Origin: a virus
Virus record (IMG/VR): IMGVR_UViG_3300011252_000306
Location: 1 to 26,855 of that record
Reading direction: 5' to 3' (one strand)
Length of the DNA stretch: 26,855 nucleotides
The notes under the pieces are model-generated. The model was not told the DNA's origin, did not search any database, and worked only from the letters and a program-made list of their open reading frames with translations. This document shows positions 1 through 25,274 of this stretch, in pieces (positions within the stretch are counted from its first letter, which is position 1; each line of letters starts with the position of its first letter). The translations under genes and the position numbers were made by a program.

Positions 1-27
1 AACATTAACGACAACGGGAGATAGTAG
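1..27 (+). repeat. Cassette repeat copy 1, carries the RBS of the first small gene
   Basis: First of five near-identical elements. The core AACGACAACGGGAGATAGT is present, with the Shine-Dalgarno GGGAG ending 7 bases before the ATG at 28. In one frame it reads N-I-N-D-N-G-R-stop, so an upstream gene outside the window may end here. The copy begins at the window edge and may be longer. Confidence 0.85.
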
Positions 28-210
28 ATGAGCTTAGAAATAACTGCGACTAGAGATAAGAAAAAAGTAATGATCCGTGATGACGGGTATGGGCTTGAAT
101 TACTTACAATGATAAACGGATTTCAATGGACTGGGCAACCTATTGATGATGAGGTGCTAGAGATGATCGAAGAAACTATAGACGCTTACCGTAAAGGCAA
201 AGAGTTATAA
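28..210 (+). CDS. Small acidic hypothetical phage protein (60 aa)
   Basis: I do not recognise this protein. It is 60 residues long, with a basic, polar N-terminus (Lys-rich around residues 11-14) and an acidic, probably helical C-terminal half (residues 39-60, with a D-D-E-V-L-E-M-I-E-E pattern). No signal peptide, membrane segment or cysteine is visible. The ATG is chosen because the cassette repeat places GGGAG 7 bases upstream. The TAA stop is followed directly and in frame by the next repeat, so mutation of that stop would add P-N-I-N-D-N-G-R. Its place among tiny early genes suggests a host-directed accessory role, but that is inference from position only. Confidence 0.75.
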   Translation: MSLEITATRDKKKVMIRDDGYGLELLTMINGFQWTGQPIDDEVLEMIEETIDAYRKGKEL

Positions 211-239
211 CCCAACATAAACGACAACGGGAGATAGTT
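211..239 (+). repeat. Cassette repeat copy 2
   Basis: Same core as copy 1, with ATA in place of ATT before it (a synonymous Ile change in the N-I-N-D-N-G-R frame). GGGAG ends 6 bases before the ATG at 240. It fills the whole gap between the first and second small genes. Confidence 0.85.
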
Positions 240-434
240 ATGAAAGAGAAAATTATTTTAGGTGTAATAGCTGTAGTGGTGGTAATTGGTTTGATTTTGG
301 GTGGCATGTATGTGCTTAGGTTTTTTAATGCTGCAACTTTGCATACGCAGATAATTACACCAAAAGCAGGTGTAGAGTGCGTGGTTGTAAGCGCATCAGA
401 TTCTACATCTGTTGATTGCTGGGAAGCGTTATAA
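240..434 (+). CDS. Small one-pass membrane protein (64 aa)
   Basis: Residues 2-4 are charged (K-E-K), followed by a hydrophobic helix at about residues 5-30 rich in Ile, Val, Leu and Gly. A soluble tail of about 34 residues follows, with two cysteines (in G-V-E-C-V-V-V and V-D-C-W). The layout fits an N-terminally anchored inner-membrane protein; the two cysteines could form a disulfide if the tail is periplasmic. A similar tail (G-V-x-C-x-V-V-S...S-V-D-C-W) occurs, as far as I recall, in small hypothetical proteins of other marine phages, but no function is known to me. The start is supported by the cassette repeat directly upstream. It does not look like a holin: there is one membrane segment and no lysis neighbour. 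Confidence 0.8.
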   Translation: MKEKIILGVIAVVVVIGLILGGMYVLRFFNAATLHTQIITPKAGVECVVVSASDSTSVDCWEAL

Positions 435-466
435 CACAGGGCTTAACGACAACGGGAGATAGTGAG
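435..466 (+). repeat. Cassette repeat copy 3
   Basis: Core AACGACAACGGGAGATAGT preceded by a diverged 5' flank (CAGGGCTT instead of CCAACATT). GGGAG ends 8 bases before the ATG at 467. Here the N-D-N-G-R frame is not the frame of the upstream gene. Confidence 0.85.
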
Positions 467-640
467 ATGAGTGATAGATGTAAGTGCGGTAAAGGCCATG
501 CCAGTAGCTATGATAACCTTTGTCGTTTTTGCCGAGAAAAACTATTTAGTCGTTCTGAAGCTAAAAGAGTTGGTGTAAGAACTAGGGGCGACGGTATGTC
601 TGTGGAACAGTACACCAACATTAACGACAACGGGAGATAG
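467..640 (+). CDS. Small zinc-ribbon-like protein (57 aa)
   Basis: The N-terminal third contains C-K-C-G-K-G-H followed ten or so residues later by C-R-F-C, a pattern that suits one zinc site (residues 5-22). The rest is basic. The last nine residues before the stop (Y-T-N-I-N-D-N-G-R) and the TAG stop are encoded by repeat copy 4, so here the repeat is translated. An earlier in-frame ATG at 416 lies inside the previous gene and lacks a Shine-Dalgarno; the ATG at 467 sits behind the cassette RBS and is preferred. Small zinc-ribbon proteins are often nucleic-acid or protein binders, but no target can be named. Confidence 0.78.
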   Translation: MSDRCKCGKGHASSYDNLCRFCREKLFSRSEAKRVGVRTRGDGMSVEQYTNINDNGR

Positions 641-642
641 TG
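613..642 (+). repeat. Cassette repeat copy 4, overlaps the 3' end of the zinc-ribbon gene
   Basis: Full-length copy (CACCAACATTAACGACAACG followed by GGAGATAGTG). It encodes the C-terminus and stop of the upstream gene and also provides the RBS of the next gene; GGGAG ends 6 bases before the ATG at 643. Confidence 0.88.
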
Positions 643-948
643 ATGGTAACTAAAGAAGAAGTTGACAAGGCTAGTGCTGCTTATGATGCTGCCTATGATG
701 CTGCTGCCGATGCTGCTTATGCTTATGCTGATGGTGATCCGATTGATAGCTTTGTTATATGCCCTAAGTGTGACAGACGATGGGCAAAGATAAGCGAGCA
801 AGGCGTTTCTGTGCAATGGCATGATGAATGTGTTGTTTGCAAGTTTACGACACAAGGAAAAGGCTCTAATGACGGAACTAAAGAAGAATTAGACTTAGTT
901 TCCGCAGAGTCTATGAAGCGAAGAACTGGGCAGCATGTGTGCATATAA
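643..948 (+). CDS. Ala/Tyr/Asp-repeat protein with four-cysteine zinc motif (101 aa)
   Basis: Residues 1-10 are a short charged helix. They are followed by a low-complexity stretch (about residues 11-31) of Ala, Tyr and Asp built from repeats of A-A-Y-D and A-Y-A, encoded by GCTGCTTATGAT-like units. Then comes a C-P-K-C ... C-V-V-C pair separated by 19 residues, a classic zinc-ribbon spacing, and a polar tail. The GTG at 640 is in frame immediately before the ATG; the ATG at 643 is preferred because all sibling repeats place the start 6-8 bases after GGGAG. I do not recognise the function. Similar Ala-rich helical repeats occur in small phage accessory proteins. Confidence 0.75.
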   Translation: MVTKEEVDKASAAYDAAYDAAADAAYAYADGDPIDSFVICPKCDRRWAKISEQGVSVQWHDECVVCKFTTQGKGSNDGTKEELDLVSAESMKRRTGQHVCI

Positions 949-980
949 CACCAACATAAACGACAAGGGGAGATAGTAAA
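949..980 (+). repeat. Cassette repeat copy 5
   Basis: Core with one substitution (ACAAGGGG instead of ACAACGGG), which turns the encoded N-D-N-G-R into N-D-K-G-R and extends the G-run of the Shine-Dalgarno. The run ends 8 bases before the GTG at 981. It directly follows the TAA of the upstream gene. Confidence 0.85.
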
Positions 981-1166
981 GTGAGTAAGGGTAGTAGACA
1001 AAGACCAGCAAACTTAGAGCGATTTAACGCAGAGTTTGATCGCATATTTAAACACAACGAGGTAAATAAAAATGCCGTACAAGAATCCAGCAGACCGCAA
1101 GTCACAGAAGAACCCCGCCGTGGGCACGAAAGAGCACGCAGCGAGAATGGAACGCCAACGAGCTAG
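981..1166 (+). CDS. Small basic hypothetical phage protein with GTG start (61 aa)
   Basis: The first 23 residues (S-K-G-S-R-Q-R-P-A-N ... F-D-R-I-F) match, from memory, a small conserved protein seen in many phages (K-G-x-R-Q-R-P followed by W/F-D-x-I-F), so this start and frame look real. The GTG is 8 bases after the Shine-Dalgarno of repeat copy 5. From about residue 31 onward the gene overlaps the next gene out of frame by 95 bases, and that part is Arg/Glu/Pro-rich with no recognisable feature. The usual family member ends soon after the F-D-x-I-F motif, so the tail may be a read-on after loss of an earlier stop. Function unknown. Confidence 0.68.
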   Translation: MSKGSRQRPANLERFNAEFDRIFKHNEVNKNAVQESSRPQVTEEPRRGHERARSENGTPTS

Positions 1167-3566: not shown

Positions 3567-4204
3567 TGCGTAGGATTAGCTTACGCGACGGCATGTTCTC
3601 TAATAACAAACTGGAACTTGAGTGCGTTATTGTCAATGCAGCGAAAGTTTCACGCGCTTACTTCTCTGGCGAATTTGATCCCGCTAAGTTAGCTGCACCA
3701 ACTTGTTGGTCTAGCACTACGCAAACACCTGACCCTGATGTGCCGGACGAGCAAATACAAAGTCGTCGGTGTATGGACTGCCCGCAGAATGTGCGCGGTT
3801 CCTCGGGGGCGGGGAGGGCGTGTAGGTTTTCGCAGCGAATAGCCGTTGTTATGTTGGACGATTTAGAAAGGGTTTATCAAATTCAGTTGCCAGCCACTTC
3901 TATTTTTGGTAAAACTGTCGGGGGCAATATGCCGCTACAGAATTACGCTAAATTTTTGTCCGAACATAATACAACTGCTATATCTGTAGTAACAAAAATA
4001 TATTTTGACGAAGCCGCGGCGATACCTAAAGTCTTCTTCAAACCAGTACGTCCTCTCGAAGAAGCAGAGTTAAACCTTGTTACGGGTTTGGTTAACCATC
4101 CCGATACAATCGAAGCAATAACTTTGCCCAGCAATGAGCGAAGCGCAACCTCGTCACCCTTTGGAATTGTCGAAGGGTACGAACATCCAACCAACCATTC
4201 TTAG
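3566..4204 (+). CDS. Four-cysteine phage protein next to SSB (212 aa)
   Basis: The N-terminal half has a C-W (C47), then C-M-D-C-P (C69, C72), then a Gly/Ser-rich loop and A-C-R-F-S-Q-R-I-A-V (C86). This C-x21-C-x2-C-x13-C pattern could bind zinc or an iron-sulfur cluster. The same C-W...C-x-x-C-P...G-R-A-C arrangement is familiar to me from phage proteins encoded beside gp2.5-like SSBs, usually unnamed. The C-terminal half is mixed alpha/beta in character with a polar tail. The start overlaps the stop of the HTH gene (TAATG). A role in replication or recombination with the SSB is inferred from position only. Confidence 0.8.
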   Translation: MRRISLRDGMFSNNKLELECVIVNAAKVSRAYFSGEFDPAKLAAPTCWSSTTQTPDPDVPDEQIQSRRCMDCPQNVRGSSGAGRACRFSQRIAVVMLDDLERVYQIQLPATSIFGKTVGGNMPLQNYAKFLSEHNTTAISVVTKIYFDEAAAIPKVFFKPVRPLEEAELNLVTGLVNHPDTIEAITLPSNERSATSSPFGIVEGYEHPTNHS

Positions 4205-8138: not shown

Positions 8139-11100
8139 TCACAGTCCCGCATCCAGATCCGCTTTTAGCTCCGCTATTGCTTCCCGCATATTCTTGTTGA
8201 TCACTACGCCGTTGTGCATGTTTACGCTAGTAGCCGCGTGCGATTTCAGCGACTTCTTAATAGCCTTACCACTTAACGCTGCGGTTGGGTGTTTGTCGTT
8301 AAACTTGTATATGTCGTCCATAATTTTGTCGGCGGTTTCAAAATCCCCCATTCGCTCTGCTATGTATAACTTCTTCGTGAGACTACTCCGCTTCTCATTC
8401 ACCGCTTTGTCTATGCGTTTGAACAACATGTTTTGTTCTTGCGCCCGAGTATATTCGACCGGAGCGAAACCTAGTATCTGCGCGCCCAAGTCTCCGAGGG
8501 TCATATCGGTGAAGATGGGGTCTCCTCGACGAGTCAATGCTCCGTCGTCTCGGGGGTATCGCACTAAGCCTTTGTACGCGTTACGGACAGCGGCGGGTAA
8601 CATGCTCTCTATACCACGTTCGTAGTTCCCCCTGCTTATGTCCTCCGTGCCGCGATAGATAGATTTCATCGTACTCCCAAAGGGGCCAGCGAGGTAGTGA
8701 AATATCTGCTCTTCTGGGGAGGCTTCAGGGTTATATTTGTTCGTCTGTATAAGTAGTCCTGCTAGTCCTATTCGGGAGGCTACATCTGCACCGAGCATGG
8801 CTGTAGGAACCCCCTTAAATAGCAATTCTGAACTAAGGTGCCTACGTACAGTAGTATCGAAGTCTTCCTCGTCATCGCCTGCGAACAGGTTAAACAATAG
8901 CCGCACTGCGCCGTACATTGGTATACCTTGTGCCCCCGCCATAAGTAGAGAGGTACCCAAAACACCTGCTAATTCCTTACGCGCTATACTTCGGTCTTCT
9001 TTCGACAGACTACTTGTCGCAGCATTAAACGATTGCAGCATGGTGTAATACATCTGCATACCGTAGTTCTTATACATAAGCGCGACGCGCCCAAGGTCGG
9101 TTTGCGCCAAACGAGAACCTGTTTCTGTAACCGCGCCACCGTTTGTTTGTGTCTCTCGGTACAACGCTGTGTCCGCCGCTTCTTGGTACTGTGCGGCACT
9201 GAGTTTCTTCTTAGGGTCGCCCTCACGAAGTCTGTCTAACTCTAACAAATATGCAGAGGTCATGGCTACTTGTCGGTTATAGATTTCGACGTTGTGAAAC
9301 ATGAACGCTGACATCTTAGTGGCTTTGTCCACAAAGGTTTGCGCCCGCCCTGACTGAGTCAACTCAAGTTCATCAGCTAGATAAGATTGGTTCAACCGCC
9401 CACGATCTAAAGCTGCCTGCACAAGGGGCTGTAGCTCTTGCACTCGTTTTTTAGTAGCCTCATCAGGGAACTTTATGTCTGTACGTAACTCAAGTATCCC
9501 CCCCGCATTGGGGGCAAAATAGTTATCAATACTAATTTGTCCCTTAACTGTCATTACGTCCTTGTCTTTACCTAAAGCGCGTAACTGCCGCGTGCTGGTG
9601 CTCGACGTTATTATCCGAGCCGCCTCTCTGATAGCCGTACCTGTCTTTTTGTACCCATACCTAGCACCAAAATATGGCATAACAAACAACGGTATCTGCG
9701 AGGCGTTGACCAATGCAGATGAAGCGTTAAACCCTATCGTATAGAAAAAAGCTAACCGGTTGGCTGCTTGAGACAAATTCTGGTAAGGAGTGGTGGGCTT
9801 TATGCCGAAATCGGTACGTTGTAGGATGCTAGTCGCAGCATTATCGAACCCTTTTAACCTCTCAGCCAATTTAGGGTCTGTCTCCATCTTCTTGTCCATC
9901 ACTTTCTTATATTCGCCAAGTTCAGCGCGTAGGTCTCGTAACGAGTTACCTACTTCAAGACGTGCCACTTGTCGCCCCAAATCATAGGCTTTACGGTTAA
10001 AGGTATACACGGCATCTACTTTATACCCCGGACTGCCTTCACGCGCCTTTAACGATTTGGCGTAGGACGACTCTGGCAAAGCGTCGATATACATGTTGAG
10101 TATCTGGTTAGTCACCGCAGAGTCTACTTGTGCCTGTTCAAGTTGCGTAAGTATGTTTCTCACGAAAGCTGTGGGAGGAACTGCATCTTTTGAGGTGTAG
10201 TCTATCTGCCCATTGTCCCCTATCTCGATCATTAGAGAGCCGTCCTCGTTACGCTCTACAGTAGGGTCATTTTCTAGTTTGGCAATAGCGCGTTCCCGCT
10301 CCTTACGAGTGTTGAACATAAGCACAGTTACCTTGTCCCGCTTAAACGCTCTTTCGTCTCTAGCGGTAGCTTCCAAAACCTCGGCTTTAGTCTCGTACAC
10401 TAGCTTGAAGTTACCTTCACGTAGTAACGGGAAATAAGGTTCCAGACTACGTTTGTCAAATAACTTACGGGTTAGTACATCGCCTAGCTTCTCGCCAGTT
10501 TTAGAGTCTTTAGCGTCGCCCGCCTCTGCCAACACAACGTCCTTTAGTCGGTCGAACAAAGATTTATATTGGTCTCGCATGTCTATGTAGACAGCTTGCC
10601 CTTCTGGGCCGAGTTTGTCCCACTTCTTGCGGAGTTCTTTATATACCGCTAACTTGGCTTCATTTTTTTCGTACTTACTTCTAGGGTTCGAGGGGTCTAC
10701 CTGTTCTGTAGTGCTGGTGTACACTACATCGTTGTACAAATCCTCTTTTTCTGGATGGCTCTTCATCCATGCAGCAGTTCTGTACGACGTAGCTTTCAGC
10801 CGGTCATCTACTTTTTGCAACTCTGCACGCTGTGTCTCTAAGGTTTTGTGTACCTTGTCCGCTAACTTGCCTAACGTTGCGTCTATCTTCTTGGCTTGGT
10901 CGGCTAGTGCTTGACTGCCTAACGCGTCGTACAATATCTTGCCCGCTCTATTTGAAGCGTTGACTACAAAGTCGTAAACCCTGTCCCCGAATCGAGTCTC
11001 CTCACTCCTAGTAAAAGAGTTACCAGTAACTTCTTTAATACCCTCAAGTATCTTGTTGACGTTCTCCTTTGTGCCGGACAACGCCGCGGGTTGGTTCATG

Positions 11101-14100
11101 TTCTCTTTCGTCGCGGCGGTACCAATGTTCGGCGCGGGGTTGAGTATCTGCTGAATCATAGCGTCAACCTGATCACCAGCAGAGCGCCCTTGCGCTAGGG
11201 CTTCAACCGTAATTTTGGACTTGCCCCTTAGTGCGCGAAACCAGTTCCCTATTATGTTAAGGAATCTACGTAAGGCGCTTACGTCTTTTGCGTCGGGGTA
11301 TATGCTATCTAACGCTACGCGGAATTCAGGATTGCCGAACGCTTCAGCGATAAACTCTTGTACGTCTATTGTGCCGTACGCGGTGCCTAGGTTAGGTTTA
11401 GTATCCGCAAATAATTTTTCCAACGCTTTAGTCATCGGATGAGAAGGGTTTCGTAGAGTCTCCAACGTAGCCGCGTGGGATAGTTCGTGTAGTAATGTTT
11501 CAGCCGTTATGTCTACAGGGCTAAGTACTATCGTGTTAGTCATACCCTCAAATGGCCGAGAGATGAAGAACCCTGCGATACTGTCCGCTGAGACGTTCGC
11601 TTCGTTCGCCTTTGCGATCAACGCACGGCGTGCGTCAGGGTCGTTGTATTCCGCCACCCGTACGTCTGTATTACCAGTATAGCGCGACAACAATGTAGCA
11701 ACTTGCCGTAGTCGAGTACTATCTACTGTAGCCCCTAATGCCAACACAGCGTTTTTGAGATCCCCTTTTCTAAGTAGGGCTTCGACGCTAGGATGCACTG
11801 GACGCCCCAATGCCTCGTAGTCCCGACGGTCTAACTTCATCGACAATGGAGTGTCGAACTGGTCGAAGTTGTTGTAGTATTCGTCGTACGTATCTGGATC
11901 GAGTATATCTACCTCACTAGGCAGCTCGAAATCTCTAGTGCGTTTAGTCTGGTCTTCCCGATATTCTTTATCTATTTCGACAGGCTCTACACCAGCTTCT
12001 TTATCGGCTTTAGCCTTATCCCTAGCTTCAGACTCAGCTTCGGTCTTCGCGTCTTGGCGTTTTAGTTGCCCGATACGTTTGTCTAGTTTGCGGACAACGT
12101 CTCCAGACAAGTTTTCTTTAGCCCATTTATACGCGAGCTTCGCATTGTTGCCGCCTTGCTGGGCGTACATAGCATTTAGTTCGGGTATGCTTTCCCCAGT
12201 TTTTTGGTATTTGGGTGTGTTAAATGCTATGTCATACGCCAAAAACTCTAAGGCATCCACTACACGGACACCTTTTCTAAAATAGGCTTGCATGCCCACT
12301 AGTTCTTTTTGGGTCTCCGTAAGAGCCGCTCTAGTGGACTTGCCCGTCCTAGGGTCTTTAGTACTCGCCCTAACCGGCTTTTCGTACGCAGCGGCGTATA
12401 CTTTCTCGATATTGTCGGAGGACACGTCGTTTAGATTAGTGTTAACCAACCCACTACGGACTTTCTCTACCGCGAGTTTTTGCGTTTTCTCCGTACCTAC
12501 GTACTTCGCTGCGATAGTATCTTCCTGCACATCACGTTTCTTCGACGCCGCGGATTTTTGCTTCTGGTCAACTTTTATAGAAACTTGTTTCTGTGCTGGC
12601 TTGACTTGTTTCGCCCCGGGCGAGGTACGAGAGGTCTTAGCACCAGAAGATGTTGTCTTAATTTTAGCAGTTGTTGTCTTGGTTTTAGCAGTTGTTCTTT
12701 TGGCTTTGGTTTGCGCCGCTGCCAACGCCTGTTTTACTTTAGGTACAGACTCCGCTATTACCTCTTGCCCGTTGTCTAACTTGGCGACAAACGCACCTGT
12801 GCCTACCTGCTTTCTATTTTTTATTACTCGCTTCTTAGGGCTGTATTTAACTCCCCCGACTACCTCGTCGCCATCTTTAACGTCGTAGGTGCTGTTCTCG
12901 GCAGTGCCGAACTTAGTCTGGTCTAGTTTTAGTGTACCGTATTCTCTTCTACCTCCTCTTGCAGGTACTGGAGCAGATCCCCCAACATCACCCAGTGGTC
13001 GCTCTTCAAGTGTAGTAGGTTGTCCGGTATCGGCAGTTTGCTCCACCCCTTCTCGCTGGCTATCTCTACCACTTCGAGCGCCAACTCCAACTCTTGTTGT
13101 GTCAGCTCCATCACTGACTCCACTGTCTCTGTCAGATAATCCGACGCTCGCTCTTCCGCCATCAGTAACTTCCTCTGCAACATTGCGTTCTTTTCGAGCA
13201 CGTTTTTCTGGGATTAACGACTCCAAAAGGGTTTGTTTTTCACTTGTAACGTCTGGTTTTCCAACGTCTCCAGACTGGGCAGCAGAGCGCCCTACGTTAA
13301 CAAAAATCCGTATCTTCGCACGTTCCGCAGGTGTTAGTGTTGGCTCCCCCGCACGAGGGCCACGCGCTTTCAGTGCCCGCTCAAACGTTTTTTCTAGCGT
13401 GTTGTAGTTTTTAGTGTCGGTCTCGTCCATGACCTTACGTAATGTAAACTCTCGTAACTGTTCCTGCGCGTTATTGGCACGGGTGTCTTGTAACAGGTTA
13501 AACGACTCTACCTTCGAGGCTTTCTTTACTGCCTCGTTCACCGCCGCCAACTCTTCTTTACTTTGTTTCTTGGGCTGCTCTTTATCTGCTGCCACCATAC
13601 GTTCTATTTCGGCGGTCTCATCAGCGTCTATTAGTTCGTCTATTTCTTGCGTCTCGGCTTGATCTACTAAATCCCCTTGCGCGGGCTTCTTAGCAGGTGC
13701 GTCTTTTTGCCGACGCCCGAACGGTGTGGAGGGAGCCTCTTCTTCGGGGGTACCTACTCTGCGCCGCGTTTGTTCTAGCTCTACAGCGAACATGTCCCCT
13801 TGGTCTTCGTCTAAACGCTCTCGCGCTTCAGCCTGCGCTTTTCGATCTTCTTCTGGATCAGGGAAAACAGTAGGCGGTTCTTCTACGGCAACGTCTTCTT
13901 CTGGTGAAGGAGTACTACGAGACCTCCCGGGTAACATGTCCACTAGAGCCTGAAAGATAAAGCCCGTAGCACCACCGTATCCGGCGGCTTCTTTCGCGTC
14001 GGCGAACAGTACCTTGTCTGGGTTGTACCCTTTTTCGACTACGTTCTGAGCAACGGTTTGGGCAAGTTCTTGTATGGCTTCCACACCACCAGTGGCACTT

Positions 14101-14810
14101 GCACTAGATAGTCGCTTTTGTATCCCCTTAACTTCGTCAGGACTAAATATCTTACCTAACTTAGCCTCCGCAGGTTTACTAAACTTGCCGATTGCTTTGA
14201 GGAAGGGGACGGTCTCTAGCGCACCTGCGCCGAGTATTCTTGGGTCAGTAATCGCTCTGTTGCGAGCTTCCTCTGACAAACCTTGAGCCCGCGCACGTTC
14301 ACTTGCTTCACCTACTTGCGTACCCACACCAGCAGCGGTACCTGCGGCGATTGCTCCTGCGGGGCCAGCCGCTAACCCACCAGCGAGTGTGGCCGCACCT
14401 GTGGTTGCTATACTACCTAGGCCGGAGCCTATGTTGTACAGGATAGATTCTGGATCACCTCCTTCAGGCCGCATTGCTTCCGCACTACCACGAATACGGT
14501 CACGTACAGCACTTTCGTTTCTTTCGTTTAGTAAAGTGGCTCCACCTAACGCTGCTTGCTCGTAGGTGTTAACCGCACCGGAACCAAATCCGGACATTAA
14601 GTTTTCTATAGGGCCAGACTCTAGCCGGCGAAGTCGGTCAAGACTCGCGCCGCGCTCCTTCCGTAGGCGTTGTTCTTCCTCTACAAAGGCTGGGCGTCGA
14701 GGAGCTAGTTGCCGGATAGCATCTTTTAAAATACGTACGTCTTCAGTATTCCCGGTGGCTTCAGCTAATTCCAGTGCTCGGTAGGCGCGGTCTAATGTTT
14801 TAGCAGACAA
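8139..14810 (-). CDS. Giant virion-type polyvalent protein with HExxH metallopeptidase motif (2223 aa)
   Basis: Order of features: an N-terminal helical motif (about 5-36, L-D-R-A-Y-R-A-L-E-L-A-E-A-T-G-N type); a Gly/Ala hydrophobic stretch (128-165); an acidic disordered region (about 290-420); a Gly/Asp/Arg-rich segment (about 550-627); a Lys/Thr/Ser-rich segment (about 700-770); L-L-H-E-L-S-H-A-A-T with H1108, E1109 and H1112, the zinc-binding HExxH of a metallopeptidase, with E-F-I-A-E-A-F downstream as a possible third ligand; then long helical regions. The last ~250 residues resemble C-termini of large marine phage virion proteins (M-Y-K-N-Y-G-M-Q ... R-R-G-D-P-I). Such proteins are thought to be packed in the virion and ejected into the host. 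The start is TTG, 4 bases after the previous stop, with only a weak GGA upstream; no in-frame ATG occurs before residue 72. Confidence 0.88.
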   Translation of the reverse strand: MSAKTLDRAYRALELAEATGNTEDVRILKDAIRQLAPRRPAFVEEEQRLRKERGASLDRLRRLESGPIENLMSGFGSGAVNTYEQAALGGATLLNERNESAVRDRIRGSAEAMRPEGGDPESILYNIGSGLGSIATTGAATLAGGLAAGPAGAIAAGTAAGVGTQVGEASERARAQGLSEEARNRAITDPRILGAGALETVPFLKAIGKFSKPAEAKLGKIFSPDEVKGIQKRLSSASATGGVEAIQELAQTVAQNVVEKGYNPDKVLFADAKEAAGYGGATGFIFQALVDMLPGRSRSTPSPEEDVAVEEPPTVFPDPEEDRKAQAEARERLDEDQGDMFAVELEQTRRRVGTPEEEAPSTPFGRRQKDAPAKKPAQGDLVDQAETQEIDELIDADETAEIERMVAADKEQPKKQSKEELAAVNEAVKKASKVESFNLLQDTRANNAQEQLREFTLRKVMDETDTKNYNTLEKTFERALKARGPRAGEPTLTPAERAKIRIFVNVGRSAAQSGDVGKPDVTSEKQTLLESLIPEKRARKERNVAEEVTDGGRASVGLSDRDSGVSDGADTTRVGVGARSGRDSQREGVEQTADTGQPTTLEERPLGDVGGSAPVPARGGRREYGTLKLDQTKFGTAENSTYDVKDGDEVVGGVKYSPKKRVIKNRKQVGTGAFVAKLDNGQEVIAESVPKVKQALAAAQTKAKRTTAKTKTTTAKIKTTSSGAKTSRTSPGAKQVKPAQKQVSIKVDQKQKSAASKKRDVQEDTIAAKYVGTEKTQKLAVEKVRSGLVNTNLNDVSSDNIEKVYAAAYEKPVRASTKDPRTGKSTRAALTETQKELVGMQAYFRKGVRVVDALEFLAYDIAFNTPKYQKTGESIPELNAMYAQQGGNNAKLAYKWAKENLSGDVVRKLDKRIGQLKRQDAKTEAESEARDKAKADKEAGVEPVEIDKEYREDQTKRTRDFELPSEVDILDPDTYDEYYNNFDQFDTPLSMKLDRRDYEALGRPVHPSVEALLRKGDLKNAVLALGATVDSTRLRQVATLLSRYTGNTDVRVAEYNDPDARRALIAKANEANVSADSIAGFFISRPFEGMTNTIVLSPVDITAETLLHELSHAATLETLRNPSHPMTKALEKLFADTKPNLGTAYGTIDVQEFIAEAFGNPEFRVALDSIYPDAKDVSALRRFLNIIGNWFRALRGKSKITVEALAQGRSAGDQVDAMIQQILNPAPNIGTAATKENMNQPAALSGTKENVNKILEGIKEVTGNSFTRSEETRFGDRVYDFVVNASNRAGKILYDALGSQALADQAKKIDATLGKLADKVHKTLETQRAELQKVDDRLKATSYRTAAWMKSHPEKEDLYNDVVYTSTTEQVDPSNPRSKYEKNEAKLAVYKELRKKWDKLGPEGQAVYIDMRDQYKSLFDRLKDVVLAEAGDAKDSKTGEKLGDVLTRKLFDKRSLEPYFPLLREGNFKLVYETKAEVLEATARDERAFKRDKVTVLMFNTRKERERAIAKLENDPTVERNEDGSLMIEIGDNGQIDYTSKDAVPPTAFVRNILTQLEQAQVDSAVTNQILNMYIDALPESSYAKSLKAREGSPGYKVDAVYTFNRKAYDLGRQVARLEVGNSLRDLRAELGEYKKVMDKKMETDPKLAERLKGFDNAATSILQRTDFGIKPTTPYQNLSQAANRLAFFYTIGFNASSALVNASQIPLFVMPYFGARYGYKKTGTAIREAARIITSSTSTRQLRALGKDKDVMTVKGQISIDNYFAPNAGGILELRTDIKFPDEATKKRVQELQPLVQAALDRGRLNQSYLADELELTQSGRAQTFVDKATKMSAFMFHNVEIYNRQVAMTSAYLLELDRLREGDPKKKLSAAQYQEAADTALYRETQTNGGAVTETGSRLAQTDLGRVALMYKNYGMQMYYTMLQSFNAATSSLSKEDRSIARKELAGVLGTSLLMAGAQGIPMYGAVRLLFNLFAGDDEEDFDTTVRRHLSSELLFKGVPTAMLGADVASRIGLAGLLIQTNKYNPEASPEEQIFHYLAGPFGSTMKSIYRGTEDISRGNYERGIESMLPAAVRNAYKGLVRYPRDDGALTRRGDPIFTDMTLGDLGAQILGFAPVEYTRAQEQNMLFKRIDKAVNEKRSSLTKKLYIAERMGDFETADKIMDDIYKFNDKHPTAALSGKAIKKSLKSHAATSVNMHNGVVINKNMREAIAELKADLDAGL
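12929..13162 (-). CDS. Possible overprinted gene inside the 2223-aa gene (77 aa)
   Basis: An out-of-frame ORF in the same direction as the large gene, over its low-complexity residues 550-627. ATG at 13162 has AGAGGA 8 bases upstream. The product is amphipathic and protein-like: acidic helix, L-T-Q-Q-E-L-E-L-A-L-E-V-V-E, W-S-K-L-P-I-P-D-N-L-L-H-L, then W-V-M-L-G-D-L-L-Q-Y-L-Q-E-E and a C-terminal V-H. A longer form from GTG at 13201 is possible. By contrast the main frame here is repetitive Gly/Asp/Arg/Thr. Other frames are also open in this region, so chance is not excluded. I do not recognise a function. Confidence 0.4.
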   Translation of the reverse strand: MAEERASDYLTETVESVMELTQQELELALEVVEIASEKGWSKLPIPDNLLHLKSDHWVMLGDLLQYLQEEVEENTVH

Positions 14811-14814
14811 TTTG

Positions 14815-16722
14815 TTATGTTCCGTATTTGTTTAAGACATCGTTAAACTGACCCGGATCTGCTAGTTGATCGACGCCCGCCTTAAAAGTCTGACCGTAGC
14901 CTAACGCATTCCCCGCAGTCTCTATCTGACCTAACAGCCCCGAACTTGCCGCTGCTTTGTTGACGGAAATCAAAATAGCTTCCTTTTTAAGTCTCGCTTG
15001 AAGCTCCAACTCCTCTCGCATTTTGGGGTTTGTTGCTTGGGCAGCCTTACGCATAAGTTGTGATACTTCTGTATCGTTGTCTTGCGCCTCTTTAATCGCC
15101 TTGAAAAGAACTTCAGCTCCTTTGCGGTATGTTTCTTCCAACTTGTTTCTCTTCTCAACACCAGCAGCTTTTATGGAACTAGCTTGCTCTATTGCGAGAG
15201 CAGTGCGGGCAAAATCGTTCTCAATATTCGCGGAGTCTATCTTTAAGGCTCTGTCCGCTGCGGCTACAGCCGTCCGCATGTCTTCATTTCGCATAGATGC
15301 CGCAGCGGAGTACAGAACCCGCTCGTTCTGAGCTAGACTATTAACCGCGTCTTCAACCGATTTTATAGCGGACTTACCAATATCTACGTCGCGTGCACGG
15401 AAATCGCTAGTTATCGCCCGATCGCTTTCTAAATATCCTTCTAGTATTCTTCGTTGGCGGTCACGTTCTTTTTTCGCGCCCGCACGCCCTGCTTGGGCAA
15501 AACCCGTCATACTGCCCTGTCCTAATCCAGCCATAACTCTTTCGGTGCCTATCGCTTTCTCACGTTCTTCAGGTGTCATACCGAACTCGTCTTTTAGCGC
15601 TTTTAACCCCTCCATTTGTCGGTCACGATCTTCTTTAATCCCTGCTCGGCCTAAGCGTTTCTCTGTCTCCGCTGCAAGGGCGTCACGTTGCTTGAGAGTA
15701 AGTTTCTCGGTATCGAGGCTAGGCAGTTGTGTAATACCACTAAAGTCTGGTTTGTAATCCTCCGCCTTGATTGTCTGTCTTGTGTCCGCACCGCCCCCTA
15801 GAGCACCACTAACGCTAGACTTTGTTCTGGTTGACGAAGAACCCGCCGGCATCGCTCCCATAGCAGGGGGAGAATCGGGTATATCTTTAGGTTTTAGCAC
15901 TCCTAAGCCGCCCATGTCTTCTCGGGGTACCGGAGCTGTTGGAGCTGGCGAAGTTGGTGTCGGCACCGCGGCGTTAGCCATTACGTCCGGCGAATCTTCG
16001 CCCCCCAATGCAGCAAGACCCAGACCCCCAGCACCCATAGACGTTGCGCTTGCTACTTTAGGTGCGCTAAGTGCAGTGGCCGTTGGGGATTTAGGAACGT
16101 TTGGCGCTATTTTCTTCTCAGTGGTGAGTAGTTTTTTCGCCATCTTCTGAGCTGCTTTCCCCGCAGGGCCAGCTAGTTTTGCTAACTTCGGTAGTACCAC
16201 AGCCGCGGCTCTTACCCCACCGCCAATGGCCCAACCAACCCCCGGCACGAACAACAGCCCGTAGGAAAGAGCTTCCGCTTTGTTATTACTTGCCCATTCC
16301 GCCAAATCCCCTACTACACTAACTGTATCGTCTACTACTCCACCCTCTTCATACCCGACAATGCCCCCTGCGGCCATACCTTGTACAGGTGGGCGGGCTT
16401 GTTGTGGCATAGCTTGTTGTGGAGCTTGTTGGGGTATTCCCATCTGTTGAGCACGAGCCGCTTGTTGCTGCTGTTGTTGCTGCCCAACACCACCTACGTT
16501 CTGAGCAACTTCTTGCTCACGTTGTTGCCGTACAGTGCTGTTGTTGGGTTGTGCGTTTAGGCTCTGCTGTCTTTTAGCTGCGTCTTGTTCCGACTTTATT
16601 CGCTGCAACGCAAGCAACGTGACCATGTCTTTGGTCATCGCGTATTTTTGTTGGAGTACTTGTGGTTTACCTCTATAGGCGTCCACCATAGTACTCACTT
16701 GCTCGTCTACGTTACCTATCAT
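14815..16722 (-). CDS. Virion-type protein with Gln-rich linker and A-A-G-G-I-V-G motif (635 aa)
   Basis: Residues 1-50 are helical. A Gln/Pro-rich linker covers 51-113, including seven consecutive Gln at 81-87. M-A-A-G-G-I-V-G lies at 116-123, followed by Y-E-E-G-G-V-V. A hydrophobic region at 153-190 (L-L-F-V-P-G-V-G-W) may insert in or lie on a membrane. Residues 200-320 are Ala/Pro/Ser-rich and disordered, and the C-terminal half (330-635) is long charged helices likely to form coiled coils. I know no named family for the whole; the layout fits an internal or tail-associated phage virion protein. The ATG has AGGG 7 bases upstream. It sits between the 323-aa and 2223-aa genes in the structural operon, 22 bases after the former and 4 before the latter. 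Confidence 0.8.
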   Translation of the reverse strand: MIGNVDEQVSTMVDAYRGKPQVLQQKYAMTKDMVTLLALQRIKSEQDAAKRQQSLNAQPNNSTVRQQREQEVAQNVGGVGQQQQQQQAARAQQMGIPQQAPQQAMPQQARPPVQGMAAGGIVGYEEGGVVDDTVSVVGDLAEWASNNKAEALSYGLLFVPGVGWAIGGGVRAAAVVLPKLAKLAGPAGKAAQKMAKKLLTTEKKIAPNVPKSPTATALSAPKVASATSMGAGGLGLAALGGEDSPDVMANAAVPTPTSPAPTAPVPREDMGGLGVLKPKDIPDSPPAMGAMPAGSSSTRTKSSVSGALGGGADTRQTIKAEDYKPDFSGITQLPSLDTEKLTLKQRDALAAETEKRLGRAGIKEDRDRQMEGLKALKDEFGMTPEEREKAIGTERVMAGLGQGSMTGFAQAGRAGAKKERDRQRRILEGYLESDRAITSDFRARDVDIGKSAIKSVEDAVNSLAQNERVLYSAAASMRNEDMRTAVAAADRALKIDSANIENDFARTALAIEQASSIKAAGVEKRNKLEETYRKGAEVLFKAIKEAQDNDTEVSQLMRKAAQATNPKMREELELQARLKKEAILISVNKAAASSGLLGQIETAGNALGYGQTFKAGVDQLADPGQFNDVLNKYGT

Positions 16723-16744
16723 TGTGGTACCCTATCGTTCGTAT

Positions 16745-17716
16745 CTAAATTAACTGACTTGTTGGGGCACTTTCAACGACTTCCGCTCCGCTAGAGCCGC
16801 CACCGCCGATTATACCTCCCAAAGCCGTACCCGCAGCACCAGCTAAGGTGCCACCTATGTTACCTATAATACCACCAAGACCCCCACTAACGTCCCCGCC
16901 GAGAGACTCGTATGTAGATATAAAATTATCCATCTCGCTTGGTTGAGAGTAGTTGTAAGACTGCGCTTCCAAAGGCATATTTTGGTACATAGATTGTTGA
17001 AACTGTAGCTGTTTGTAAGGGTACAACTGCTCCATCGAGTATTGGTCTATGTCGGCTTGTATGCCTTCTTGCTCTATACTTCGTTGCACCTCTCCTGCGC
17101 GTGACTGCGCGTCTAACCCGCGTAGCCCGTAATCTCGCATCTGCATAGCGTTATTTTGTAGTCGATCTTGTTCAGTATTAAACTGCTGTCGGCCTTGTTG
17201 GAACGCCGTGTTGTATCCTTCGCCTGTTATATCCGCAAGGTTACGGAGCATGTTACGTTGAGCCTCAGACTCCATTATAGCCTGCCTACCGCCACCAAAA
17301 GCCCCAGCCCTAGTAGCCGCAGTTCGATTTTGTAGATTAGAGATTTCCGCTTGTCGTCGCGCTTCTTCCAGTTGTGGATTTAGTGAACCTTGAAGATACG
17401 GGTTCATATACTGTTGTTGCGCCGCAGCATCAAAGGTGCCCGGATTGTACTGGCCTTGTTCTGCTGTAGGTAGCGATAACCCTGCCAACCCCTGAAAGGC
17501 TTGCTGCTGGAGAGCGGATTCATCTGCGGTTAGCTGCCCTGTGTACGCTTGGTACCCTTGTTCAGTTAGCGCCCGCGCCCTACCGAGCATATCGGTAATA
17601 TCTGCCCCCGCCCAATTAGACAGCGAGGATTCCCCACCTAACACTTCGCCGACCGGTTGTTGTTGACCAGCGTTTGCTGTTGGGGCTGGCCCGTTTGATT
17701 GTACTGGATCTGCCAT
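16745..17716 (-). CDS. Virion-type protein with A-G-A-F-G-G-G-R-Q motif (323 aa)
   Basis: Residues 100-180 contain Y-M-N-P-Y-L-Q, L-N-P-Q-L-E-E-A-R-R-Q-A-E-I, A-G-A-F-G-G-G-R-Q-A-I-M-E-S-E and L-A-D-I-T-G-E-G-Y-N-T-A-F, a chain of short motifs I recall from marine phage structural proteins of unknown exact role. Long helical regions flank it, and the C-terminus (about 268-305) is Gly-rich and hydrophobic (G-G-I-I-G-N-I-G-G-T-L-A-G-A), resembling membrane-active or virion-core segments. ATG at 17716 is preferred over GTG at 17719, since AGGAG lies 7 bases before the ATG. The preceding gene's TAG lies directly upstream, so coupling is probable. A role as tail or ejected internal virion protein is inferred. 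Confidence 0.82.
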   Translation of the reverse strand: MADPVQSNGPAPTANAGQQQPVGEVLGGESSLSNWAGADITDMLGRARALTEQGYQAYTGQLTADESALQQQAFQGLAGLSLPTAEQGQYNPGTFDAAAQQQYMNPYLQGSLNPQLEEARRQAEISNLQNRTAATRAGAFGGGRQAIMESEAQRNMLRNLADITGEGYNTAFQQGRQQFNTEQDRLQNNAMQMRDYGLRGLDAQSRAGEVQRSIEQEGIQADIDQYSMEQLYPYKQLQFQQSMYQNMPLEAQSYNYSQPSEMDNFISTYESLGGDVSGGLGGIIGNIGGTLAGAAGTALGGIIGGGGSSGAEVVESAPTSQLI

Positions 17717-17719
17717 CAC

Positions 17720-19162
17720 CTAGCTCCTAGTCGGAAAAAATTGTGTAGGATCTATTTCCCTACCTTGCTGAGTACTACCTGTGCGCTCTTGACGTACGTC
17801 TTCCAACATTTTGGATAACGCATCGGCACCTGCATTAGAGTTGCCGTTACCCATATGACTAACAACATCAGCCGGAATAACAAACTCACCGTCACTCAAT
17901 GCAGCAGGGGCGTTGTTGTCTATTGTAGCAGGCCGTTGGTCAGCCATACCATCAGTCCTACCGTTTAAGTACCTGCCCCCGTTACCATAAACTTCGTCCA
18001 TAACCGTTCCCCCCATAGATAATCCGACGATACCCCCAGCGTTATAGCGTCCGTCTCTTCCTGCTTGCACCTGCCCCCCTCGGGCTAAATTTGTAGGACG
18101 TTGACCTTGAGGCATTTGCCCCATCGGACGTTGTGGGGGACGTTGCCCCTGCATCGGAGGACGTTGACCTTGAGGCATTTGACCCATCGGAGGACGTTGC
18201 CCCTGCATCGGAGGGCGTTGTGGGGGACGTTGACCCTGCATCGGAGGGCGTTGCCCCATTTGTGGTGGTGGCCCGCCTTGCGGCATTTGTGGTGGTGGCC
18301 CGCCTTGCGGCATTTGTGGTGGTTTACCCTGTGGTTGTGGGGGTTTAGCCTGTGGTTGTGGGGGTTTAGCCTGCTGTTGTTGGCGTATTTTCTCCACTAC
18401 AGCCACAGGTTGCGCTTGTTGCGTACGTATTCGGTCTAGTATAGAGGACAATCCACCTGCACTCTTAGAGGTGTCCGTGTTGTTTCTACCCACTATGCCA
18501 CCCGCCGCAAGTTGTTGTATGCCGCCCGCACCCCCAGCCATAGCAGCGTACTGCGTCGGGGCTTGCTCCATTCCTTCTGGAGCCGCCGGAGACGCACCTT
18601 GATCGTAGGCGTTTTGCATATCTTCCATAAACTGTTGTTCTGTTCTAGCCGCCCGATTTTCCGCAGCTCTGTCATACATTTCGTCTCTACGAATAGGGTT
18701 GTTCTCGTTAAAGTCAAACAGGGCTTCCGCTTGTCGGTTCGTTAGACTACGCGCTGCTTCGTTAGCGAGGTCGTCGCCTTGTTTGGCGTAAGTAGTGTCA
18801 GTAAAGTACCTGCGTCCGTACGCTCCCGGCCTACGATTTTCCTCATAAGGAGTGTATTGTTGGCGGGTAATCTTAGGCGGCGATTTAAACCCACGTTGGT
18901 AATCTGTAGTGTTCGCACCTTCTAGGGTGCCACGAGTCAATCCTGTTGGTACGCCTTTACGATACGCAGTGTATCTAGGAATAGTCCCTTGGTAGCCAGT
19001 AGGTTTCGATTGAGACTGTGCAAAACTACTGTTCGCAAGACCGTAAGTAGCGGCCAACCTCGCAACATCTTGTACACCTGTATTGCCAAATGTGTTAGAT
19101 ACCCATTCCCCGAATCCTCCAAAAGTACCCGGGTTTGACCCCTCTGCGTTGTCTTCAGCCAT
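17720..19162 (-). CDS. Virion-type protein with Pro/Gln/Arg repeats and D-G-E-F-V-I-P-A domain (480 aa)
   Basis: Residues 1-200 are polar with many Arg/Tyr/Gln. L-A-A-G-G-I-V-G is at 218-225. Residues 265-357 are a proline-rich repeat array (P-P-M-Q-G-Q-R-P-P-Q-R and P-M-G-Q-M-P-Q-G-Q-R types, with K-P-P-Q-P-Q-A and P-Q-M-P-Q-G-G-P-P units at the start). A second A-G-G-I-V-G is at 375-380. Then comes a compact domain with L-S-D-G-E-F-V-I-P-A-D-V-V-S-H-M-G-N-G (422-440) followed by an N-A-G-A-D-A-L helix. That last domain is widespread, from memory, in marine phage structural proteins, including paralogues within one genome. Function is unknown; the Pro-rich array suggests an extended flexible linker. 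It starts 2 bases after the previous stop. Confidence 0.82.
   Translation of the reverse strand: MAEDNAEGSNPGTFGGFGEWVSNTFGNTGVQDVARLAATYGLANSSFAQSQSKPTGYQGTIPRYTAYRKGVPTGLTRGTLEGANTTDYQRGFKSPPKITRQQYTPYEENRRPGAYGRRYFTDTTYAKQGDDLANEAARSLTNRQAEALFDFNENNPIRRDEMYDRAAENRAARTEQQFMEDMQNAYDQGASPAAPEGMEQAPTQYAAMAGGAGGIQQLAAGGIVGRNNTDTSKSAGGLSSILDRIRTQQAQPVAVVEKIRQQQQAKPPQPQAKPPQPQGKPPQMPQGGPPPQMPQGGPPPQMGQRPPMQGQRPPQRPPMQGQRPPMGQMPQGQRPPMQGQRPPQRPMGQMPQGQRPTNLARGGQVQAGRDGRYNAGGIVGLSMGGTVMDEVYGNGGRYLNGRTDGMADQRPATIDNNAPAALSDGEFVIPADVVSHMGNGNSNAGADALSKMLEDVRQERTGSTQQGREIDPTQFFPTRS
18092..18370 (-). repeat. Pro/Gln/Arg tandem repeat array inside the 480-aa gene
   Basis: Two nested repeat families are visible. 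A 27-base unit (P-Q-M-P-Q-G-G-P-P; CATTTGTGGTGGTGGCCCGC on the + strand) occurs almost unchanged twice in a row near 18257-18310. A longer set of CATCGGAGG...CGTTG units encodes P-P-M-Q-G-Q-R-P-P-Q-R at least four times. Near-identical DNA copies suggest recent expansion or slippage. The repeats also generate long meaningless ORFs on the + strand. Confidence 0.85.
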
Positions 19163-19164
19163 AG

Positions 19165-22100
19165 TTACTTACCTAGTATGTTTAGTAGTTTATCAGTGGA
19201 CGACGGCACTAGGCCACCGCGTTTAGCTGCAAACCGCAAAGGTTGCGCCATACCCCCAAAAATTGAGTCTTCAGGATTTAGTGCCTGCCTTGCCCCACCT
19301 TCTGAAGAGGAGAAAGGGTTAACTGAAAACAACGATTCCTGTTCCGGGGTTGCAAAAATGCTGTTAAAGTCGTAAATATACTCTAATTCCCTAGCAGGTG
19401 CACTACTTACGCTAACTTGTCCCTGACGCATACCCGCCCGAACTGCTTGCCGTAGGGCGTTGTTCTGCTGCCTTGTAGCGATGTCTGTGGTAATTTGTGT
19501 GGTTACATCGGTAGCAGTGTCGATTATGGTGTCGTTTAGGGTATCGACACTTTCATCTAACTTGGTATTAACGTCAGAAACAGCGTCCCCCATCTGGGTA
19601 AACTGAGAGTTTGCTGTTGCTGTAGGGAAGTACGTGGCTATTTGGTCTTCTAGGGAAGTATCCCCAACAACACCCACGAACCGGTTCACGTCCTCTTGCG
19701 TGGGGGACTCTAACCCTGCATCTTGGTATGCCCGTAACACTTCTTCCTCGCTTGAGTATAGCGGATCTGCGTAACCAGATACCCGAGCGTTTAAGTCCGA
19801 TCCGTTAGGATCATTCGCTGCGACAAACTGAGTTACGTCCTCTTGTGTTGGTACGTACCCAGTCTCGCCAAAAGCCTGCACAATATCTTTGGTGTTGGAG
19901 TAATTACCGTCGATAACGCTTAATACATTAGATTGTGTATACGTGTCGTCTATACCAATAGCAGTTAGCCGGTTCTGTATGTCCTCAGTGAATGGGGTGG
20001 GGTCAAATTCAAAGTCTATTGGCCCTGAGTAGCCGCTCATCCCTCGCCCGTACTGGTAATTGTCAAACGCGGCGTCATACTCGGACTCATATTCAGACAA
20101 GATTTTGTTTAATTCCGGGTCAAGTTTCATCATGGTGTTAGAGAATAAGTCTCCGGTGTCCTGCAACACGCCTCCGACTAACCCACCCGCATCAGTGATT
20201 GTATTACCCACTCCTCCTGCGGCAAGGTACCCGCTGTACACGCCCCCGCTAACCCCTGTACCTACAAGCCCCTCTAGTGTGGCAGCGAAAGCCACTTCGT
20301 CTACTACGTCGATAGTTGGATCTAGTTTGTACAATTCTTTGGCTACATAATACGCAGGAAGCCCTCCTTCTACCGCTTCAGAGACGCCGCTACCTAATAA
20401 CACACGGCCTCCTTCTAGCACGCGGTTTGTAGCAATCTCGTTAGCTGCGTCGAGAAACACGTTGTTGGTTTTGCCGAGTACGACTTTATCCAACGCAAGT
20501 CCGCCTAAAGGTAGTGTAGCTAGTGTAGCTACTCCGGCCACCGCTCCTGCCTTGGTGCCAACATCTATGGCGTACGCGTCTGCTGCTTCCGGAGAACTGC
20601 CTAACTCTATTTGCAGATCATACGCTCGTTGGTACGCTTCTGTAGCATTCGCCCCAAAACTCTCCGCAAGGTCGGTAACTGCGCCCGCAGCAAGCCCCGC
20701 ACGAGTAGCATTCGCAGCAACAAACCCCGCTGCTTTAGCCGCAAACGTAGCGCCGCCCCCAACTAGGAGGGGGGCTACTTCCTGAAGGAGTTCTACCCCA
20801 ATCATCTCAGCAAGAAACGTACTGGGTTGGTCTACCGCAGCGCCGGCCACTTGCTTTGTTCTCGCCCAAGCTCGCTCCGCCCATGAAGCATCCTCCGCTA
20901 AATCTAACTCTGCGGACATGTTGTTTTTGAGGGCTTCTACTTGCGCTTTGTAATCTTCGGTGTTTGTCTCAGCGCCTAAATCTACTAACTGAGTGGCAAA
21001 GTTTGACAACGCTGTGCCTGTAGGAGCTACCCCAGCTAAAATAACTACCCCGTTAAACGCCGATAAGATGCCTCCAGTAGCGCGTAGGGCGTTGCCCACA
21101 AAGTTCTGGACACTTGTGTCCCCGCCAATGACGTTGTTGTCTATAAGTTTACCGAGGTTCTCTACAAACTGTATTTGGTCTCCGGTGTATTCGTTGTTAG
21201 CGGCGTACTTAACTGCAAAGTCAGTATTGCCCTCGTCGAGCATATCGGCAATAAATTGATCCCCAATGCTTCTATATCCAGTTACAGCAACATCTTGTAT
21301 CTCTGGTGGGGCTAGTGGGTTGCCGTCTGTATCTGTTGTCACCTGCACTAAGTTACCGTCTTCGTTTATCGACTGTATTGTTAGCACGGCTCCAAACTCA
21401 GGGGAATACGTTACATAGCTACCACCCCCTTCTAGCCCGCTGGTGTTTATGCCGGTCAGACCGTAGTAAAGGTTCTGGTTCTCGTCACGGAACACCCTAG
21501 CTTCACCATTTGCTACATTGGCTGCGGTCACGCCTTCCGCGTAGTAGGGGAGTTCTTTTTCTCGGAAAGCCACGTCGTTTTTTCGACCTGTTAGTATACG
21601 ATCCGCTTCGTCGTATATTTGAGACAGGTCATCGCCGTCAGCGATACCAACAGGTAGAGCATCGCCGCGTTCGATGATGCCTTGGTTTACGTAATTGTCG
21701 TAGACTATTGTGTAGTTAACCTCGTCAACTAATCCTCTACGTAACGACGTGTCGTTAAGTAAAGCGTCTACGTCTTCGGCACTCATGCCGCCGTCCCCAT
21801 ACCTGTCCGATATAACTTTGTCGAGTTCTTCAGGGGATATGTCGAATTGGTCGTACCCCCCTTCGCCAAGAATAGCGTCTATCGCGGTGGTGCGTTTTGT
21901 TATCGCCTCTTCTTCAGAGAAGAAAGATTTCCCCTGCATCCCACGGAACTGGATGTCATTGACGACACTTATTGTCCTGTCTAAGTTGTTTATCTCTCTA
22001 TATGTATCGAGGTCAATATCTAGCCCAAGACGTTCGTTTATAAGTCCTATATTGGTCTCGTCTTGTATCTTATTTGTCTCGACTGTTAAGTCGTCCAACG

Positions 22101-24234: not shown

Positions 24235-24236
24235 AC

Positions 24237-24704
24237 CTACTCTCCTCCGTCGTAGGAGTACACAGTACCCAGCATAGAGAAGCCTAGTTTCTCTAAAGCC
24301 GCTCCAGTTCTTTCTGGGAGTATGTTTGTAGTAGTTCCTATAAGAATATCGCCGCACTGCATAGATTCACCAAAAGCGATGAACGGAGCTATCATTTTCT
24401 TGCCTACACCAGTGCTTCTATGCCGCGGGGCGACATACCAAAATGCGTCAGATAGTATTAAGTAATCGCTAAAGAATTGTTTTTCCACAACCCCGACGAT
24501 GACTCCCACTATCCCCTCGTCGGCATTCTCAGCTACGTACACACAGGCTCGATCTTTAAGTACCGCCCGTACTAGAAACTCGCGCATCCTTTCTTCAACA
24601 AGGGGGAACTTTGAGTATTTGGGGGACTCTTGGTGAAACTGCCCTATGTGCCTATATATAGCAGCTACGTCGCTAACTTTTCCTGCACGTACAATAGTGC
24701 TCAT
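24237..24704 (-). CDS. GNAT-family N-acetyltransferase (155 aa)
   Basis: GNAT fold by pattern: an N-terminal V-R-A-G-K-V-S-D-V-A-A-I strand/helix, a central strand V-G-V-I-V-G-V-V (66-73), then D-A-F-W-Y-V-A-P-R-H-R-S-T-G-V-G-K-K-M (86-104), where R96-S-T-G99-V-G101 is the acetyl-CoA pyrophosphate loop (Q/R-x-x-G-x-G/A). The last strand is Y-D-G-G-E. It would transfer an acetyl group from acetyl-CoA to an amine of unknown target. GNAT genes inside phage structural operons are common and may modify virion or host proteins. The ATG overlaps the upstream stop (ATGA), and its 3' end holds the Shine-Dalgarno of the 1689-residue gene. The family is clear; the substrate is unknown. Confidence 0.9.
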   Translation of the reverse strand: MSTIVRAGKVSDVAAIYRHIGQFHQESPKYSKFPLVEERMREFLVRAVLKDRACVYVAENADEGIVGVIVGVVEKQFFSDYLILSDAFWYVAPRHRSTGVGKKMIAPFIAFGESMQCGDILIGTTTNILPERTGAALEKLGFSMLGTVYSYDGGE

Positions 24705-25264
24705 TGGGCAGCCTCACGTAATTCCGTCAACCCATTCCTGTATTTATTCACTAACGCGCCGAGTTTGGGTATGTTTTCTGAGGGTATTTTTTCTTTAGTA
24801 GGGGATATTAGTACGGATGCTTGCGTAGAGTCCTTCCCCTTAGTTAACACGGCGTTACCCCCGAGACCTTGGATGATCTTGCTGGCCATATTCACTATCT
24901 TGCCTAGAGAGTTATAATTCCCAAACACAAAAAACGCCTCTGAAATATTTTTATCCAACATATAGTTGTTGTACTTCAGTAGGTTTATTATAAAGTTGTC
25001 CACGGTGTCCACGTTGTACACGCTCACCATAACTCGTCCGGCACCTTTCTTAGTCCCCATAACACCTAGGAAAGCGGTGTTGCCTATCTGCACGTAATCG
25101 GCGTTAGGGGCTTGCGCGGTTAACGCTACCTTCTGCATCGCGGGAGCCATATCTACTGAGGATTTGTTGTTGGCTTCCCCAACTTTAGCAAAATACTCGG
25201 CCAGTAAGTTCGGCCCAGACAATAACTTCTGTTTGCTGTCGATTGGCTGTACTTTAGTTTGCAA
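24701..25264 (-). CDS. Unknown structural-block protein (187 aa, TTG start)
   Basis: No family recognised. The sequence is mixed alpha/beta, with K-G-A-G-R-V-M-V-S-V-Y-N-V-D-T-V-D (about 74-90) giving strands, a hydrophobic helix I-I-N-L-L-K-Y, and a C-terminal helix. There are no cysteines, membrane segments or repeats. The TTG start is chosen because AGGGGG lies 6 bases upstream and the next in-frame Met is residue 39. Its stop overlaps the GNAT start (ATGA) and it begins 10 bases after the stop of the tail-like gene, so the three are probably cotranslated. A role in the virion or its assembly is inferred from position. Confidence 0.72.
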   Translation of the reverse strand: MQTKVQPIDSKQKLLSGPNLLAEYFAKVGEANNKSSVDMAPAMQKVALTAQAPNADYVQIGNTAFLGVMGTKKGAGRVMVSVYNVDTVDNFIINLLKYNNYMLDKNISEAFFVFGNYNSLGKIVNMASKIIQGLGGNAVLTKGKDSTQASVLISPTKEKIPSENIPKLGALVNKYRNGLTELREAAQ

Positions 25265-25274
25265 TTAACACCCC

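Follow-up and report, generated by a model that had tools for sequence, protein, structure and literature searches.

A short linker between variable small genes in a virus record and in other phages

The left end of the window, a 26,855-bp linear virus record from IMG/VR, carries a row of small genes that each start just behind a copy of the same short sequence. This raises the question of why different genes should have the same upstream sequence, and whether, as the original prediction proposed, they form an array of cassettes that are gained or swapped by recombination between their shared ends. The proposal is now well supported by cassettes found with different neighbours, by the homology break points and by the capture of gene 3. 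The repeated sequence, here called the linker, is probably a mobile boundary sequence used for assembling accessory genes from a common pool via homologous or short-homology recombination. The data are metagenome contigs, several of which end inside the linker.

Sequence and position of the linker

The five near-identical elements first noticed are all present. The linker core AACGACAACGGGAGATAGT is found exactly at 7-25, 220-238, 445-463 and 623-641, and with one mismatch at 959-977. All five copies are on the plus strand within the left 980 bp, and a search of the whole 26.9-kb window found no core outside the array; in 100 shuffles there were zero matches (0 expected by chance). The parts of the array and the resident genes next to it are as follows.

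1-25, plus strand: linker copy 1, its 5' end cut by the contig start
28-210, plus strand: cassette gene 1, 60 aa (MSLEITATRD...), no relative found
207-238, plus strand: linker copy 2, with the gene 1 stop codon, the linker and the gene 2 RBS
240-434, plus strand: cassette gene 2, 64 aa, hydrophobic N-terminus, likely membrane-bound as judged by eye
430-463, plus strand: linker copy 3, ACAGGGCTT form
467-640, plus strand: cassette gene 3, 57 aa, zinc-ribbon-like, phrog_13804, compared below with L192 and L193
608-641, plus strand: linker copy 4, translated as the end of gene 3, RBS for gene 4
643-948, plus strand: cassette gene 4, 101 aa, Ala/Asp/Tyr-rich MVTKEEV-type N-terminal repeat joined to a CxxC zinc-ribbon-like part
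944-977, plus strand: linker copy 5, the joint to the resident gene; identity with L010 starts at base 963, inside this copy
981-1166, plus strand: resident gene MSKGS, on the recipient side; it follows the nuclease also in L010, L011, L012 and L016
1350-2882, plus strand: resident SNF2-type helicase (PF00176, PF00271), with 593 relatives, the anchor for the comparison of relatives

The small genes of the window gave almost no matches in the family search, and the host-directed role suggested for them in the original prediction is conjectural. MVTK relatives of gene 4 are found in L006, L008, L010 and L103. The resident genes downstream of copy 5 are MSKGS, MPYKN, the SNF2-type helicase, a gene with a weak match to a ssDNA-binding family and one encoding a primase/helicase-like DUF927 protein. 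Further into the window, at 8139-14810 on the minus strand and hence opposite to the replication genes, a 2,223-aa protein with LPD39 and DarB-like (polyvalent, antirestriction-type) matches is encoded. The region 14815-26855, also on the minus strand, encodes large, probably structural proteins with zero PHROG matches, and within it lies a GNAT acetyltransferase-like gene (24237-24704).

The consensus of the linker in the window and its relatives is ATAACACAGAGCTTAACGACAACGGGAGATAGTG-ATG, and there is a second form in which ACACCAACATAAACG replaces ACACAGAGCTTAACG. The likeness among the window copies reaches upstream to about TATAACACAG or ACACCAACAT, and the linker is about 30-34 nt long. 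While the five copies are real, the extent originally assigned to them has to be revised to about 32-34 nt, a length which in copies 2, 3 and 5 takes in the stop codon of the preceding gene. Of the 23 copies in the window and its relatives with the 5' end TAAC, 17 use the TAA as the stop of an open frame 20 codons or more in length. Each window copy supplies an RBS 6-8 nt before a start codon, as had been predicted, the distance from GGGAG being 7, 6, 8, 6 and 8 nt for copies 1-5. In the window and in the viral contig scans the linker is specific and always precedes small genes. Neither a promoter-like site nor a terminator was found in the linkers, and folding gives them as unfolded (z 0.13).

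The remarks made earlier on the coding capacity of the element hold for the window. All five copies can be read in one frame as N-(I/L)-N-D-(N/K)-G-R-stop; in copy 4 translation of gene 3 runs through this tail and ends with it, and in copy 2 the sequence reads in frame after the TAA of gene 1. The tail is not a fixed property of the linker family, however, since many copies in relatives end otherwise. In-frame gene endings of the linker type are also found in L006 (LNDNGR) and L121 (LNDSGR).

Close relatives, gene 3 and the break points

In L010, L011, L012 and L016 the gene before MSKGS encodes a nuclease (PF12705 in L010). The nuclease gene ends C-P-H-N-G- (C-P-H-N-G-R) in 29 of 80 helicase relatives, and its last codons, which in many relatives read CACAACGGGAGA, double as the RBS of the next gene. 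This native junction and the linker have ACAACGGGAGA in common, in the same frame. An array is absent from all 61 relatives whose sequence reaches 1 kb or more beyond the helicase on its upstream side, a lone two-mismatch match being the only hit. The array is therefore a local addition, made at a place where the native junction already resembles half of the linker. According to the original prediction, the repeat arose from the 3' end of one gene joined to the RBS of the following one; the native nuclease end makes this plausible, but leaves the 5' half TAACACAGAGCTT unexplained. Judged by its sequence, the nuclease-end junction is as plausible as a landing site as it is as the origin of the linker.

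Close relatives differ in their small genes at this site. L007 is 93% identical to the window from the helicase onward, while L010 shows 83% identity overall and 96% beside the joint. Upstream, L010 has the nuclease and a KGDEL/MVTK pair, and four other small genes stand there in the window. The L007 array is made up of some 17 small genes with 14 linker copies and runs straight into the helicase start, which is TTG instead of ATG; MSKGS and MPYKN are missing there. No homologues of the window cassette genes were found among the L007 genes. The small genes of these three close relatives are thus completely different at one place.

Two further features were seen on the minus strand of L007. At 3592-3645 there is a remnant of a SKLK cassette, in which the linker and the first codons are kept and are followed by foreign sequence and an early stop. 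At about 2515-2665, between two linkers, the place of a gene is taken by a stretch that resembles a tRNA and has a perfect inverted repeat of 22 bp, TGTGTTTTGTTGAGTGCTGTAG, on its two sides; ARAGORN found no tRNA in it, and Rfam gave no match at the curated threshold.

Gene 3 is a case of capture. Its relatives in L192 (82% identity) and L193 (81%) have no linker, and their protein goes on to finish in a sequence such as LMAIETKKRGK. The window's homology to them ends at base 611, the linker follows directly, and the gene's own 3' end is lost from base 612. Because the homology ends at the linker, gene 3 now ends YTNINDNGR in the linker frame. As read from the sequence, this joint is a direct footprint of joining at the linker; donor and direction are known for gene 3 only. 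A conserved short sequence at the boundaries of exchanged genes was also found when homology break points between array contigs were placed, as 19 of 25 merged points fall in the linker against 3.9 expected from its share of the arrays, a figure that is to be taken as a guide, as both the places and the limits of the arrays were chosen manually and the phages cannot count as independent samples.

The linker and its cassettes in other phages

Linker scans covering 2.9 million viral contigs of IMG/VR found the linker in at least five types of phage that otherwise differ. In all the contigs below it stands before small genes.

L104, L006, L135, L164: T7-type helicase-primase and family A polymerase (PolA)
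L137: another family A polymerase and an exonuclease
L103: N4-like RNA polymerase and DNA ligase
L102, L131: primase-like protein and tape measure
L121, L136, L183: DnaB and O-like initiator
L008: prohead protease

The variable stretch of the T7-like contigs L006 and L104 is bounded by the helicase stop and the small gene preceding the polymerase, and its right-hand joint is found in L135 and L164 as well. The same cassettes recur in different company. The MELK cassette lies between linker copies in L102, L131, L103 and L121 with differing neighbours, and other neighbours are also found for SKLK (L103 and L121), MDNLDL (L007, L008, L104 and L137), MAGIEE (L121 and L164) and the KGDEL/MVTK cassettes (L103 and L010). 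The G+C content of the arrays is 0.40-0.42 in the seven contigs measured, as against 0.37-0.51 for the resident DNA, as if the cassettes had been drawn from one pool. DNA searches with the left end of the window and the L007 array gave no match among deposited phages and plasmids. The MNLYLISQ cassette had four distant matches in a bacterial search, and its family is present in deposited phages with up to 47% identity.

L008 carries on its minus strand, at 9340-12080, a row of Ala/Asp-rich MVTKEDV paralogues, several of them behind a repeated promoter-like block, TTGAC...TATAATATAACCATACCAACCCAAATGAGGAAAG. One MDTLDL cassette has been inserted at this block via ACCAAC and GCTT.

Such sharing could be ordinary phage mosaicism, with the linker kept as a regulatory start-associated element for the translation of early genes. 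The distance from the RBS to the start is fixed in nearly all linker copies, and a selected role in translation could also conserve the sequence. Cluster K mycobacteriophages offer a parallel in their Start-Associated Sequences, GGGATAGGAGCCC, a repeat before start codons whose role is given as unknown (PMC3203893). Conservation of the linker, however, goes about 20 nt further upstream than the RBS and covers the stop codon of the gene in front; close relatives manage without the linker (0/61), it is common to unrelated phages and always found with variable genes, and break points cluster in it. An exclusively regulatory explanation is therefore improbable, and a translational role beside recombination is possible. 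The linker resembles the Start-Associated Sequences in being a one-direction repeat just before the starts of different small genes, but differs from them in sequence and in host phages; they are described for a single phage cluster, and in the passages covered no exchange of cassettes across unrelated phages is reported.

It might also be asked if repeats common to the phages of one sample have made the assembler join unrelated pieces, as several array contigs begin or end in a linker (the window at base 1, L121 at its last base). This is extremely unlikely. L102 and L131 are about 10% diverged, come from different samples and have the same cassette at the same place, and shared cassettes are 87-96% alike, not identical, in most pairs. 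L121, L136 and L183 also agree, although reads may be common to them, and gene 3 is in frame through the linker.

Recombination at the linker and known systems

Sequence comparison establishes the element and where it lies, and shows that several phage types have cassettes in common, that homology breaks off at the element and that gene 3 was captured. We infer recent recombination, homologous or annealing in type, acting on the linker itself, and a benefit of the genes to the phages. The proposed unit of about 30 bp would consist of one gene's stop codon, the fixed linker and the RBS of the next gene. Homologous or short-homology (annealing) recombination would add, remove or swap small genes singly or in small groups, made possible by the common ends of the cassettes and by the match of the linker to native junctions with ACAACGGGAG. 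The genes would come from a pool common to unrelated phages, and each would land behind a working RBS. As the RBS comes with the joint, a phage may be able to take in a small gene and translate it at once.

Joints fall at several places within the linker, and at the left border of an array often only the 3' half of the linker remains, attached to a native gene end, as in L137 (CCAACAACGGGAGA), L006 (TACTACAACGGGAGA) and L121 (GTAACAACGGGAGA); both features fit crossing-over between short homologous stretches. The L121 and L183 records encode an Erf (Rad52-like) annealing protein. No Erf was found in the window record, and it was seen in one phage type only, these records being fragments. No tyrosine or integron integrase was found in any of 14 records (TIGR02249, PF00589), which are likewise fragments. 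The lack of an integrase, the scattered joints, the 3'-half left ends and Erf together point to homologous or annealing recombination.

Cassettes derived from integrons, with the linker as a shortened attC moved by a host-supplied integron integrase, would also account for single small genes in one direction and, by analogy with attC R'' boxes, for a 5' end (TAACAC) that contains a stop codon. Between cassettes on the minus strand of L007 there are in fact two hairpins resembling attC, one of 59 nt (1368-1426; z -2.7) and one of 49 nt (2257-2305; z -3.7), with paired 7-nt ends and an inner stem. Such hairpins are rare elsewhere (18 matches in 3.24 million strand-bases; about 0.03 expected in the L007 stretch), and one L007 joint consists of the linker 5' half and an attC-like end. 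Even so, we give this origin little probability, since the linker does not fold, the L007 hairpins are without the exact GTTRRRY core, integrases are absent from the 14 records, the joints are not at one place, and the common linker form has no exact match in bacterial contigs taken as one genome per species (genome_contigs). The linker as an attC site was rejected by folding and by the scan with its background rate. It works like a cassette end, yet is not attC, and some cassettes may have arrived via host integrons.

Phages with attC clusters and no integrase (CALIN) are known (PMC9892861), and the arrays resemble these integrase-less one-direction rows of small cassettes. An attC after each gene, with bottom-strand folding, was not seen apart from the two L007 hairpins, and unlike a folded attC the linker carries the RBS of the next gene. 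A bolder reading, rather unlikely in our judgement, is that of an integrase-free cassette system in many unrelated phages, where the linker would be a standard plug for trading small genes one by one among phages living in the same waters, with its own dedicated recombination step and possibly fed by host integrons.

In T4-type phages, PeSL elements (Arbiol 2010, Comeau 2014) are short intergenic repeats, each made up of a promoter and a terminator stem-loop, that reportedly mediate the shuffling of small-gene modules. The linker differs from them in being an unfolded RBS linker in which no promoter or terminator was found.

For lambdoid phages, short conserved sequences at gene boundaries were proposed long ago as sites of homologous recombination, and it has long been disputed whether they drive phage mosaicism, because most mosaic joints show none (PMC3029335). 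The linker is similar in being a short conserved boundary sequence around which gene content varies and for which no special recombinase is needed. It is different in that up to 14 copies stand in a row, in holding a stop codon and an RBS, and in occurring in several unrelated phage types instead of one family. The idea of recombination at boundaries is thus old, while the linker, the array form and the spread across unrelated phages appear to be new. With many linker copies, several phage types, and recipients and one donor relative identified, the boundary idea becomes directly testable.

The relatives of gene 3 have another recurring small-gene joint of their own, GAGGAAAATGAGNATGAGTAA (L192 2974-3180, L193 150-180), and perhaps each phage group has its own linker.
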